From: Flavivirga aquatica
Lineage (GTDB): Bacteria; Bacteroidota; Bacteroidia; Flavobacteriales; Flavobacteriaceae
Length of the DNA: 64,000 nt
Direction: 5' to 3'
Assembly: GCF_001747085.1 (NCBI RefSeq)
Contig: NZ_MDJD01000054.1
Span: 1,054,001 to 1,118,000 of the forward strand
This document shows, piece by piece, positions 7,311 through 11,240 of the stretch. Positions within the stretch are counted from its first letter, which is position 1, and every line of letters starts with the position of its first letter. The notes beneath the pieces are model-generated. The model was not told where the DNA came from. It saw only the letters and a list, made by a program, of their open reading frames with translations, and searched no databases. The translations under genes and the position numbers were made by a program.

Positions 7311-7661
7311 TTACTTATGATCCTCTTGCACTACTTGATCTCGATATTTACAACAAGGATGTACTTTTGCATAAGCTTCATCTGTCGCTTTTATATTTTT
7401 GGTATCATGACCTACTGCTAGTATTTTAGATTGAATCGTTTTTAAATCTGTTTTGCGTTCATCATAAATCAATTTCAACTCATGTGTTTTCACATTCCAC
7501 ACAGCAGACTTAACCCCTTTTGTATTTAAACTTGCTTTTTCAATTCTAGTTTTACACATTAAACAAACCCCATCAACTTCCATAGAGGCCTTTGCATTCT
7601 TGTTTTGTGCAAATGCTACTGTTGTTACAAATAACACAATAATAATTATTAATTTTTTCAT
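7311..7661 (-). CDS. Periplasmic heavy-metal-associated (HMA) domain protein
   Basis: A 116-residue exported metal-binding protein. A signal peptide covers residues 1-19 (VAFAQ). One HMA ferredoxin-like domain follows, with the metal site C33-LM-C36 (GVCLMCK in place of the usual GMTCxxC). The tail adds a second thiol pair, HPCCKY, at C103-C104. HMA proteins carry Cu(I) or related soft metals; periplasmic location is inferred from the signal. Its start lies 4 bp after the TonB receptor gene, so the two are translated together. It is the last gene of a metal-related group and ends at the shared terminator. Confidence 0.85.
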   Translation of the reverse strand: MKKLIIIIVLFVTTVAFAQNKNAKASMEVDGVCLMCKTRIEKASLNTKGVKSAVWNVKTHELKLIYDERKTDLKTIQSKILAVGHDTKNIKATDEAYAKVHPCCKYRDQVVQEDHK

Positions 7662-7665
7662 AGTT

Positions 7666-9906
7666 TTATTTTATTTTAAATCTTAATCCTGCATAATACA
7701 AACTTCCAAATATAGGCCCATATACAAAAGTACTATCAAAATTTGATCCAAAAGGGTTATCAGCTCCTAATATAGGATTATTCTGCCTTATATTGGTAAT
7801 ATTTTCACCTCCTAAATATATTTCAAATTTAGGAGAAAACACTCTTGTTACTTGTACATTTAAAGTTCCTAGCGTTGGGGTATATTTTGGCAATTGATAT
7901 TGAACAGGGCTACTTATTGTAGATGAAAATCGTTGTTTACTTAACCAATTATATGTAACATCAAATTTCCATTGTTTAATGCTATCTGCATGCATGTGCG
8001 TTTCATAAGAAGCGTTTGCAAATAAACGATGTTTAGGAGTTAAAGGTTTCGATAATTTCCCAGAATTATAATCTGTTTTCACATCATAATATTTATAAGC
8101 TAGTCTTAAATTAAAATGCTCAAAAACATTATAATTAATTTCCGTTTGAAAACTATTCGCAAAACTATCGCCTTCTAAATTATAAAAATTAACTTCTTGA
8201 GGATTTTCATAATCGACTACTACTTGATTTTTAAAATCAGTTTTATAATAATCTAACATAATATCTGCTTTTCGTCCAAAAAGATTAAATCCTTGTAAAT
8301 AAGAAACACCATAATTCCATGCTATTTCTGGGTCTAAACCATAAATCTTCCCTGTCCCATTTATAATATTAATCGTTCTTGAGGTAGAAAACATTTGTTG
8401 GTTTTCTGCAAAAATATTAGCACTACGTTTACCTCGACCAAAAGAAGCTCTTAAGGCTGACTTTTCCCAAGGTGTGTAGCGTATATGCAACCTAGGAGTG
8501 ACAAAGTTCCCTAATAAATTATGATTGTCAATCCGTATTCCTGCAGTTAAGTTCAATTTATCCAAATTATCCAAATTGTATTCAAAAAAAGCACCAACAG
8601 ATTCTTCTGTCCTTTCATAATCTGTATTATTTACGAACTCATCATAATTATCATAAGTATAACTCACTCCTGTTTTAATTTTATGCCTAGAATCGCTAAT
8701 TATAGAATTATAAATAGCATTTGTATAAAAACTATTATGCTTAATATCATATTGATTTAAACCAAAATACGATTCCTGTTTATGATTACTAAATGCTGTT
8801 TGAATCCCTAAACTTTGATATGGAATTTCAGGATTCACATAACCTAATTTGGCAGAAATTTCATAACGTCTTGTATCTATCTCACTTCCCCAAGCATTTG
8901 TTGTTAACTTATCTCTATCTGAATCAAAATCTAACGCTCCAGTTTCTTTTTCATCATTTAAAAATTTCAAATTAATAAAGCTCACAAATCCTTTTTCGGC
9001 ATTGGTATATTGCCAGCGATTCATCATATTAATTTGATTGTACTTGGGCATATCTAAAAAGCCATCACTATTCACATCATGTTCATTATTATGAATGTTT
9101 CCATGCAAATACAACCCTGTATCCCATTTGTTACTCACTTTTGTATTTATATGAGTATTTAGCTCAAATCGCTCACTAGAAGCTCCATATAGATTAACAA
9201 ATAGCTTATCGTCTGTTGATGGCTTAACCAATTCGGCATTAATTTGACCCGCAATACTCTCGTAACCATTAACTACACTACCTGCTCCTTTTGTTATTTG
9301 AATACTCTCTACCCAAGTACCTGGAATAAAACTTAATCCATAAGCTTGAGAAGCGCCTCGAATAGACGGAATATTCTCTGTAGCAATTAAAATATATGGA
9401 CTTGTAAGCCCTAACATTCTAATTTGACGTGTTCCTGTAACAGCATCTGCAAAATTAACATCAATAGAAGGGTTTGTTTCAAAACTTTCAGATAGGTTAC
9501 AACATGCTGCTTTTAATAACTCATCACTACTTACCGTAACCACATTTGTAGCTTGCAAATATGATTTTGTGGTAGTTTGCTTTCTTGATGTAACTGTAAT
9601 AGCTTCTAAATCATCCATAGATTGTAACCAATGGCGTACTTCTTTAGGTTCTGTAATAGTTAATGTATCTGTTTTAAAACCAATATAACTAACTACTAAT
9701 TTTTTATATTCCTTTTTATATGAAAGTTCAAAACTCCCATCAATATCTGTTACAACTCCAACAGTAGTGTTGAGCCAATATACATTAGCTCCAACTAAAC
9801 CAATGGTTTTATTTTTTTCATTAGCTTCCATTATTATTCCTGTAATTTTTTCTTGTGAAAATAGAAAAGTGGGAAGTAATAATATTATGTATAGTAGGTA
9901 TTTCAT
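7666..9906 (-). CDS. TonB-dependent outer-membrane receptor, metal-linked
   Basis: A 746-residue receptor that would import a ligand through the outer membrane using TonB energy. A signal peptide (1-17) is followed by a carboxypeptidase-regulatory-like beta-sandwich (about 20-95), a plug domain (about 110-235) and a 22-strand barrel ending in the aromatic-rich YYAGLRFKIK. The plug begins with an unusual adjacent cysteine pair, C135-C136 (KAACCNLSESF). The gene lies between two HMA-domain genes, so a metal or metal complex, most likely copper, is the probable ligand. No siderophore genes are nearby. Substrate is inference from context. Confidence 0.92.
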   Translation of the reverse strand: MKYLLYIILLLPTFLFSQEKITGIIMEANEKNKTIGLVGANVYWLNTTVGVVTDIDGSFELSYKKEYKKLVVSYIGFKTDTLTITEPKEVRHWLQSMDDLEAITVTSRKQTTTKSYLQATNVVTVSSDELLKAACCNLSESFETNPSIDVNFADAVTGTRQIRMLGLTSPYILIATENIPSIRGASQAYGLSFIPGTWVESIQITKGAGSVVNGYESIAGQINAELVKPSTDDKLFVNLYGASSERFELNTHINTKVSNKWDTGLYLHGNIHNNEHDVNSDGFLDMPKYNQINMMNRWQYTNAEKGFVSFINLKFLNDEKETGALDFDSDRDKLTTNAWGSEIDTRRYEISAKLGYVNPEIPYQSLGIQTAFSNHKQESYFGLNQYDIKHNSFYTNAIYNSIISDSRHKIKTGVSYTYDNYDEFVNNTDYERTEESVGAFFEYNLDNLDKLNLTAGIRIDNHNLLGNFVTPRLHIRYTPWEKSALRASFGRGKRSANIFAENQQMFSTSRTINIINGTGKIYGLDPEIAWNYGVSYLQGFNLFGRKADIMLDYYKTDFKNQVVVDYENPQEVNFYNLEGDSFANSFQTEINYNVFEHFNLRLAYKYYDVKTDYNSGKLSKPLTPKHRLFANASYETHMHADSIKQWKFDVTYNWLSKQRFSSTISSPVQYQLPKYTPTLGTLNVQVTRVFSPKFEIYLGGENITNIRQNNPILGADNPFGSNFDSTFVYGPIFGSLYYAGLRFKIK

Positions 9907-9960
9907 TTTTTATATTCGCTAATATGCGTTTATGTATTTTTTTAGGTTTAAGTTTTTCGA

Positions 9961-9980
9961 ATTCTTGTTAATTCAAGAAT
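9961..9980. repeat. Small hairpin between the fusion gene and the TonB receptor
   Basis: ATTCTTG and CAAGAAT form a 7-bp stem around a 6-base loop in the 81-bp gap. It might act in processing or partial attenuation. There is no long T-run. Confidence 0.35.
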
Positions 9981-9987
9981 AACAGTA

Positions 9988-10695
9988 TTATTTAATTAAC
10001 ATCATAATTGCCATAATAATCATAATACTATTTTCAATAAATGTTGCTTGTGTCATGGGTAATTTTAAAGCCGTACCTAAACAGGCACATTGGATAGATT
10101 TCTTATCTAACAATGTTTTGATGACACCTATAGTAGTGATTCCTAAAATGATTAGCGTAACCATCAATGCTATTGAAATTTCAATACGCATTAAAAAAAG
10201 CACACCTAAAACTACCTCTATAAATGGATAAATCCAACCATAAAAAGGTATTGCTCTTGCTAATGGATCGTACATTCTAAACGACTCTGGAAATCCTTTT
10301 AAATCTAATAACTTGAAAAAACTAAATACAATATAAAATAAGCCCATAAAATCCAGCATAAACCCATTAATCTCCCAAGGCTTGATGTTGAGTAAAATAG
10401 ATGTTATTGTTATATAACCAAATATTAAAAACAATGGGAATAGCTGTTGCAACTCACTTTTTTCTATAATTTTAGAATCTAAGCTAGAAATGGTTTTTTC
10501 TGAAATAGAATATTTACTAGGTAAAACGTCTTGCAATATTTTTGCTGAAAAGGGTTGAGATATTTCTACAATTGCTTCAGAAGTTTCTAAATTAACAAAA
10601 GCTTTTTCAACTTCTGGAATTTCATTTAGAGTATCTTCAACAAAAGTTCTACAACCATTACAGGTCATTCCTGTAATTGTATACGTATGTTTCAT
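9988..10695 (-). CDS. HMA domain fused to a MauE/DoxX-like membrane domain
   Basis: A 235-residue fusion. Residues 1-65 form an HMA metal-binding domain with the classic GMTCNGC site (C12, C15). A linker (about 70-85) leads to four membrane helices (about 85-235) resembling the MauE/DoxX fold seen in quinone- or thiol-linked redox proteins. Before the last helix is a CAC thiol pair (C203, C205; IQCACLGTALKLPMT). The likely place is the inner membrane, passing metal or electrons. It sits between the TonB receptor and the HYC_CC_PP gene on the same strand. The precise reaction is unknown. Confidence 0.85.
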   Translation of the reverse strand: MKHTYTITGMTCNGCRTFVEDTLNEIPEVEKAFVNLETSEAIVEISQPFSAKILQDVLPSKYSISEKTISSLDSKIIEKSELQQLFPLFLIFGYITITSILLNIKPWEINGFMLDFMGLFYIVFSFFKLLDLKGFPESFRMYDPLARAIPFYGWIYPFIEVVLGVLFLMRIEISIALMVTLIILGITTIGVIKTLLDKKSIQCACLGTALKLPMTQATFIENSIMIIMAIMMLIK

Positions 10696-10769
10696 TTTTG
10701 AAAATAATTTGAATTATAAATAATTTATATACTCTCTTTCTTAAAGAGAATAGCAAAAAAATCTATTTA

Positions 10770-11183
10770 TCAAATAATAAAGACTTGGTCTAAAACTTGG
10801 ATATTTGTAACCAAATTAGGGGGAGAATAATCTTTATGAGGAATAATTTCCTTTTGTAGGTATTCTAAGAGGTTAGTATATGAGTAAGTATATACTATAA
10901 TAAATCGTTGTTGCTCTAAATCTAAATCATCAAACGAGGACATTTTTAATTCGTCTTGTCCTTTTACAACATCTATTTTATCTTTACAACAGGGTATTTT
11001 TGTGATTTTTTCTAAAGCTATTTCATAAGCTTCCATAGCACATTTCTCTACTTCAGTAAAAATAGATACATCTACTAATACATCGCCACAAAAATGTTTT
11101 TCAATAGTGAAAGACACTGTTGAAAACAAAACAAGTAATGCTAAAATAGCAGAAAAGCCTTTATGTAATAATACTTTAATCAC
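10770..11183 (-). CDS. HYC_CC_PP-type small exported protein
   Basis: A 137-residue protein with an N-terminal hydrophobic helix (about 11-26). It shows the three signatures that name the family: H30-F-C32-G, the adjacent pair C65-C66 (KIPCCKD) and YSPP near residues 119-122. A further cysteine is at C48. The spaced Cys and His residues suggest metal binding in the periplasm or at the membrane. It is the first gene of the metal group on this strand and starts with GTG. No function is established that I know of; the metal role is inferred from residues and neighbours. Confidence 0.75.
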   Translation of the reverse strand: MIKVLLHKGFSAILALLVLFSTVSFTIEKHFCGDVLVDVSIFTEVEKCAMEAYEIALEKITKIPCCKDKIDVVKGQDELKMSSFDDLDLEQQRFIIVYTYSYTNLLEYLQKEIIPHKDYSPPNLVTNIQVLDQVFII

Positions 11184-11240
11184 AAAACAAAAATACTAAA
11201 AATTAAAATCTAAACAGTTTTTTTTATAAATGATTAACAC

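Follow-up and report, generated by a model that had tools for sequence, protein, structure and literature searches.

The stretch analysed here, hereafter the window, comprises 64,000 nucleotides of the Flavivirga aquatica genome (NCBI RefSeq assembly GCF_001747085.1, contig NZ_MDJD01000054.1, positions 1,054,001 to 1,118,000 of the forward strand) and carries on its minus strand a compact locus, in which the gene for a small exported protein of the HYC_CC_PP family (HYC) precedes those for an HMA-MauE fusion, a TonB-dependent receptor (TBDT) and a periplasmic HMA protein. On balance, we favour reading the locus as a copper-acquisition operon of the Bacteroidota envelope that would be controlled by its own first gene, acting as a copper-sensing leader. 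An earlier note on the same DNA had placed these four open reading frames (ORFs) in this order on one strand, separated by 4-81 bp, and had assigned them to the same four families; the order and coordinates are as it described, with gaps of 74, 81 and 4 nt in the 5' to 3' direction of the operon, and matches to NF047658 and Pfam profiles above their cut-offs uphold the assignments. The features of the locus are the following.

11188-11195, minus strand: TATTTTTG, a putative -7-like box recognised by sequence, 4 nt 5' of the GTG start codon of HYC.
10770-11183, minus strand: HYC_CC_PP gene (137 aa, small exported protein), NF047658 at 125.4 bits against a cut-off of 28.
10707-10775, minus strand: predicted RNA element, from the minimum free energy fold of the HYC/HMA-MauE junction.
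9988-10695, minus strand: HMA and MauE fusion ORF, PF00403 at 37 bits and PF07291 at 63.7 bits (cut-off 27), both above their cut-offs.
7666-9906, minus strand: TBDT ORF with CarbopepD_reg_2, Plug and TonB barrel domains.
7311-7661, minus strand: periplasmic HMA protein ORF, HMA at 32 bits.

Within the window's family, 108 of 120 genomes have HYC_CC_PP, and across the phylum 46 of 148 do; the receptor family (E ≤ 1e-60) occurs once per genome in 36 of 148 Bacteroidota genomes. By hand comparison, no more than 1 kb separates the two genes in 22 of the 23 phylum genomes that have both. The loci fetched via HYC include 22 with the receptor, the window among them, of which 15 carry the four genes in the same order and the remaining 7 lack HMA-MauE only. 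In a second set, consisting of the window and the best 80 of 592 confirmed receptor relatives and hence biased to close relatives (n = 81), HYC, TBDT and HMA follow one another in 74 loci and HMA-MauE lies within the cluster in 33. All four genes are ordered in 26 of these 81 loci and the three stand alone in 47; HMA-MauE is placed after the HMA gene in one, five have HMA-MauE-TBDT-HMA with the nearest HYC more than 2.5 kb upstream of the receptor, and two are cut by a contig edge. At L048, L061, L069 and L075, HMA-MauE sits in a Cus locus instead. Since the HYC-TBDT-HMA order is kept and HMA-MauE varies, the conserved unit is HYC-TBDT-HMA with HMA-MauE as an optional fourth gene.

In the wider collection of 181 HYC ORFs, drawn from across the phylum, HYC mostly stands before copper-type genes: what follows it resembles this TBDT in 65, a CusA of the host's type in 47, HMA-MauE in 41, an HMA protein in 11 and CopA in 5, with unknown genes, other Cus genes or locus ends making up the others. 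These counts are not unbiased rates, as the loci were selected via HYC or the TBDT and a few genomes (L078, L120) appear twice. Three loci (L081, L087 and L089) hold tandem HYC genes, one before CusA and the other before an unknown ORF of 193-205 aa.

The end of the HYC gene is unusual in both its stop codon and its predicted folding. TGA terminates 140 of 147 HYC genes in or near the window's family, as opposed to 5% of the 627 other ORFs that reach 300 aa in the same loci, and 128 HYC genes end in ATT TGA (Fisher p = 2e-65, comparing TAA with TGA and TAG together; control ORFs and junctions were called mechanically). In the window, the 5' arm of the predicted element coincides with the HYC stop (10770-10775) and the 3' arm (10707-10712) ends 11 nt before the HMA-MauE start, with inner hairpins between them. 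Across loci, 72 HYC gaps fold with a mean z of -2.87 versus -1.35 in 120 control gaps (p = 9e-10), the window's own gap being by itself not extreme (z = -1.81). In 78% of 152 HYC gaps of 45-145 nt, the outermost stem begins no more than 6 nt from the stop and takes up 60% or more of the gap, compared with 26% of 248 controls and 26% of shuffles; the qualifying stems end at a median of 12 nt upstream of the following start. If the final codons are folded too, the HYC stop codon has its pairing partner no more than 30 nt from the next start at 120 of 152 junctions, compared with 25 of 248 in controls, whether the next gene encodes the TBDT (43/57), HMA-MauE (34/37) or CusA (34/43); within the family the count is 112 of 133, and gap-shuffled versions reach 24-26%.

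Such structure could in principle belong to an ordinary transport operon, as a processing or mRNA-stability hairpin without regulation, and the mean z of the control regions shows that these are structured too. We regard this as the least probable of the alternatives considered here, given that the HYC stop codon falls within the predicted helix whose end is near the next start, that TGA is enriched, and that the window junction holds no terminator-like site. The lack of such a site also led us to reject an intrinsic attenuator. Rfam searches returned nothing for the window stretch at E ≤ 1 and, for L045, L060, L072 and L083, nothing above the gathering scores except a tRNA.

Further evidence for a conserved RNA comes from the junctions preceding CusA. 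Eighteen CusA-type gaps, picked by sequence likeness, are compatible with a three-way structure derived from the same rows, with 97.8% of cells paired and two-sided changes in 9 of 28 pairs; none of 500 shuffles reaches either value, and sliding the partner yields at most 4. A covariance model built from 17 CusA-type gaps together with the HYC end, searched against 60 whole genomes, yielded 26 matches (E ≤ 0.01) spread over 25 genomes. Every one of the 26 sits at the 3' end of a HYC gene, and 17 fall outside the training set. RNAalifold found no common structure on all 43 pooled CusA junctions or on a pool of 53 uptake junctions, and a consistent one for a smaller group of five aligned uptake junctions; R1 matches at three uptake junctions (L103, L123 and L176) were weak (E 0.13 to 7.1) and are not used as evidence. 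Because the helix holds the stop codon, a simple rule suggests itself, well supported by sequence, whereby the next gene opens when a ribosome stands at the HYC stop. A CruR-like arrest at the PP motif appears disfavoured, as it would leave the ribosome about 45 nt before the stop and out of reach of the helix, and we therefore prefer the stop codon itself as the site.

The protein that ends at this codon is conserved in a characteristic pattern. The window HYC carries H30, C32, C48, C65-C66, P121-P122 and a terminal I137 directly before its TGA, and among 139 distinct sequences the corresponding columns are kept in 132 (H30), 138 (C32), 138 (C48), 139 (C65-C66) and 139 (terminal Ile), with PP missing in 8. 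In the 181 ORFs, Ile is the last residue in 164 and PP lies within the last 35 residues in 170. Cys-Cys and PP are spaced by 55-56 residues in 128 of the 133 near relatives, and PP is followed by 15 residues in 114 of 131 HYC. Along the tail the amino acids are kept and synonymous codons vary, the last Ile being mostly encoded by ATT. The commonest-residue tails of the two operon types differ, reading YSPPNLVxDIQVLDQVFLI before uptake genes and YKPPLVIRDIYKLDETYLI before efflux genes.

These features bear on an appreciably less probable, though serious, alternative to the leader reading, namely that HYC is a CusF-like periplasmic copper chaperone serving both uptake and efflux machines, with the helix merely coupling translation to keep the products in proportion. 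The predicted export, the conserved H, C, C and CC, and the position of HYC next to copper-type transport genes would all suit a chaperone, and the helix by itself needs no sensing. Against this, mean pairwise identity is highest, besides the Cys-Cys, in residues 25-50 (0.57) and in the last 22 residues (0.59), compared with 0.22 in residues 51-64 and 0.40 in residues 67-115, yet the AlphaFold2 model, of low confidence overall (pLDDT 65), is so in the C-terminal tail as well; the Cys-Cys-to-PP spacing is near-fixed while the residues in between vary; and the 10 family genes that end in an ATC or ATA codon still encode a terminal Ile, although the helix does not need it. HYC is probably a regulatory leader rather than a fourth part of the transport machinery. 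The earlier note had missed this probable regulatory role and the HYC-TBDT-HMA unit with its optional HMA-MauE.

In the mechanism that we propose, HYC would be translated and exported, and its His/Cys site would bind copper while the ribosome finishes the protein. At that moment the tail SPPxLVxDIQVLDQVFLI would lie in the exit tunnel, and about 72 residues would separate the Cys-Cys from the one added last, placing it about where a chain leaves the translocon. A ribosome ending or pausing at the HYC stop would open the helix and free the start of the next gene, and copper on the nascent chain would alter how long the ribosome dwells there. Control of the dwell time by the conserved tail is moderately supported by the conservation described above; that copper, through the Cys-Cys some 72 residues back, sets it in turn is what we infer. 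The same kind of leader would also head Cus efflux operons. More broadly, and with somewhat less than even confidence, we suggest that HYC_CC_PP may be the Bacteroidota answer to CutF and CruR: a widespread copper-sensing leader, unrelated to them by Pfam, whose UGA stop lies inside a helix over the next start and in which a ribosome held at termination by the 18-residue tail, while the copper site of the chain lies just beyond the membrane, would set copper uptake through a new Cys-Cys TonB receptor family and a methionine-lined HMA-MauE protein and, with a different tail, copper efflux.

The identity of the metal is suggested by the second HYC gene of the host, which is separated by 108 nt from a downstream CusA gene; CusC, CopA, CusB and an HMA gene whose product begins like a lipoprotein come next (names given by likeness, and for CusA also by comparison with solved proteins). 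The host CusA scores 653 bits to solved CusA against 401 to ZneA, and residues M573, M623 and M672 of E. coli CusA, the copper methionines numbered according to the excerpted text of PMC11213822 with chain numbers taken 7 higher, align on Met in the host protein; the host CopA has a CPC motif. A 103-aa Cys/His-rich protein with an N-terminal hydrophobic stretch (L039:9612-9923, minus strand) adjoins this Cus operon. Since a paralogous HYC heads an operon with a Met-triad CusA and CopA, copper is the likely metal; copper or silver fit best overall, and copper for uptake. That the operon instead handles another soft metal (zinc, mercury or cadmium) or a chelate seems unlikely to us, if marginally less so than an unregulated hairpin. 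The HMA and MerP-like scores lack metal specificity, and a Riemerella zntR mutant alters many TonB receptors (PMC11960050, in excerpt), the link to the present receptor family not being shown; what speaks against another metal is the Cus/CopA paralog and, for mercury, a best MerA score in the host genome of 370 bits, below the curated cut-off of 454.

In the copper-acquisition reading, ionic or chelated copper would pass the outer membrane through the receptor, whose plug Cys-Cys would serve as a ligand. The window receptor has the plug motif AACCN(L/I)(S/A)ESF, which includes C135-C136, as well as M164 and H268, and is 56-83% identical to its counterparts among 21 relatives. Of the 115 distinct receptors encoded near HYC, 114 retain C135 and C136, 112 retain M164 and 114 retain H268; the motif AACC[ND][LI][SA]ESF recurs in 112, and both plug cysteines are also present in 14 of 14 distant receptors. 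Solved relatives of the receptor are limited to weak FepA/PirA-type matches and one SusC domain, and a profile search against solved structures gave none at 1e-10. In one relative (G263:C2:78462-80712) the receptor gene is split over two frames, with an internal stop in one part.

The periplasmic HMA protein would then take over copper from the receptor. It has an HMA domain after an N-terminal hydrophobic stretch read off the sequence, and it carries VCxMC (C33, C36), H60, H85 and C103-C104. HMA-MauE, where present, would hand Cu(I) along its methionines to a CxC motif and a cytosolic HMA domain. The fusion contains C12xxC15, M113xxxM117, C203xC205, M225, M228 and M232, and its AlphaFold2 model (pLDDT 88) shows the HMA domain and five long helices, taken as membrane helices; a structure search with this model returned mostly HMA domains. 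Judged by positively charged loops, the HMA domain and C203xC205 are both predicted to be cytosolic. C12, C15, M113, M117, C203, C205, M225 and M228 are invariant in 27 fused proteins. Without any choice of loci by CxC[FL]G, a MauE match was obtained at 29 of 33 loci, 27 of them non-fused, and CxCxG is present in all 27 non-fused proteins. In 18 non-fused MauE proteins (19 of 30 loci picked by CxC[FL]G, minus the fused L251), Met is found in 0 of 18 at positions 117, 225 and 232 and in 1 of 18 at 228, the Met113 column being gapped. As the fused form adds conserved methionines to a CxC that is general to MauE, Cu(I) transfer along a putative methionine-lined route suits HMA-MauE better than a redox role, and the redox help from the MauE part that had been suggested finds no specific support. 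The accompanying idea of an envelope route for a soft metal from the outer to the inner membrane fits the receptor Cys-Cys, the HMA domains in the periplasm and the predicted cytosol, and the paralogous HYC on the Cus/CopA operon, except that HYC is probably a leader and not a part of the route.

Several observations weigh against a copper-sensing leader acting at its own stop codon. At distant loci, TGA ends 44% of 32 HYC genes against 27% of 85 other ORFs, stop pairing is found in 8 of 19 distant members against 26% in shuffles, and the Cys-Cys-to-PP spacing is 55-56 in just 19 of 37 distant HYC. CusA genes that follow HYC are TGA-rich as well (64% of 39, in or near the family), which the model leaves unexplained. 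Swapping gaps among members leaves stop pairing unchanged (83% in the family, 43% in distant members), because both arms are near-invariant in the family (UUUGAU/AUCAAA); the outermost pairing itself therefore shows little covariation. The uptake-type junctions align too poorly for a covariation analysis, so that the covariation reported above covers the CusA-type subset, and plain translational coupling would also explain the helix alone. Furthermore, by hand comparison no HYC match accompanies the receptor in 13 of the 36 phylum genomes that carry it, and the import role is inferred from general TBDT function. HYC also gives no match to DUF2946, the family of CutF and CruR, and has PP rather than RAPP; CXXC and CxxxC are both missing from the window protein, whose conserved set is HxC, C and CC. 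Finally, one kind of leader before both uptake and efflux operons needs opposite signs, and its response must therefore differ between the two.

Upstream of HYC, at a distance of 57 nt, the window encodes the exosortase XrtF and its associated membrane protein (TIGR04128 and TIGR04127; 11241-12213, minus strand), and the end of the exosortase-side gene is recognisable before HYC in many of 30 upstream stretches. The intervening TATTTTTG resembles the Bacteroidota -7 box. At 54 of 79 loci, against 7% in shuffles, TAnnTTTG occurs no further than 60 nt from the HYC start as called mechanically, and its commonest distance to that start is exactly 4 nt (28 loci). HYC may be translated from a leaderless mRNA.

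Copper sensing and uptake in Bacteroidota seem to be little described in the literature that we found. If the proposal is true, HYC_CC_PP, whose name so far reflects just three sequence motifs, would turn out to be a family of metal sensors read out through a ribosome at the stop codon, and a substrate could be assigned to a widespread TonB receptor. A search of the literature on HYC_CC_PP, DUF2946 and copper leaders, TonB and flavobacteria, with subscription papers mostly outside it, turned up no description that we recognised as this system.

Among known systems, mercury uptake by MerT and MerP combines a periplasmic HMA protein with an inner-membrane thiol protein, an outline that the present locus shares. 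It differs in that MauE replaces MerT, that MerTP (NF033556) scores 31 bits against a cut-off of 180 with MerP also far below its cut-off, and that the host has no MerA above cut-off. The copper inventory of Bizionia argentinensis lists periplasmic HMA proteins and Cus/CopA genes, and its section 12 describes neither the four-gene operon nor HYC (PMC11213822).

Passage of copper across the outer membrane, as predicted here, likens the receptor to CrtA/BfrG (excerpts of PMC12914433) and OprC (excerpts of PMC11213822). CrtA, compared by description, lacks conserved Cys and Met residues and mostly adjoins PepSY_TM genes (PMC12914433), whereas the receptor here keeps C135-C136 and M164 and is followed by genes of HMA types. 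OprC uses CxxxM-HxM (motif via PMC11213822), whereas in a pattern search, its positions not placed on a structure, the two occur together in 0 of 115 receptors near HYC and singly in 1 (CxxxM) and 5 (HxM). With the plug Cys-Cys kept, the OprC pair of patterns missing and CrtA lacking conserved Cys or Met, the receptor looks like another TonB receptor family.

The closest parallels to HYC are the DUF2946 leaders, from which we set it apart by Pfam profile and motifs. PF11162 (DUF2946) does not match the window HYC at E ≤ 1 or ten other HYC at E ≤ 10, and homology was rejected on this lack of a detected Pfam match; a search for DUF2946 itself gave matches in 4 of 99 genomes of Bacteroidota, above the cut-off in one. 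Some distant HYC (L192, L200 and L203) have CxxC in place of the single middle Cys, as in CruR, a possible sign that more than the layout is common to HYC and the DUF2946 leaders. According to the excerpted texts cited here, CruR of Bordetella pertussis is the first gene of a copper TonB operon (PMC9426467) and its arrest has been seen in vitro (PMC12992588). Like HYC, it is a leader before a copper TonB transporter with a Cys motif and a C-terminal PP at fixed spacing; unlike HYC, it belongs to DUF2946, has RAPP three residues from its end and acts through Rho termination in a 162-nt gap. A 2025 survey, as excerpted, did not find RAPP/RGPP leaders of copper-related genes in Bacteroidota and reports those of TonB-related genes throughout Gram-negatives (PMC12992588), and stop-proximal candidate arrest peptides have been described before secDF in Bacteroidota (excerpts of PMC10987492).

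In Rhodobacter capsulatus, the exported leader CutF combines a copper motif with C-terminal prolines, and a stem-loop that follows it hides the next ribosome-binding site (excerpts of PMC9973294). HYC resembles it as a small exported leader directly before a copper gene, with C-terminal prolines and RNA structure in the gap, and differs in that CutF is a DUF2946 protein with CxxxC and in that the HYC stop codon itself lies inside the helix. A further difference is that the screen for CutF-like proteins demanded PP within 15 residues of the C-terminus (PMC9973294), whereas 15 residues come after PP in most HYC; its list D includes Bacteroidota proteins and shows TonB and RND genes as frequent neighbours. 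HYC thus shares the leader layout with CutF and CruR, not their family, and those two, as described in the same excerpts, are a precedent for opposite response signs inside one family.

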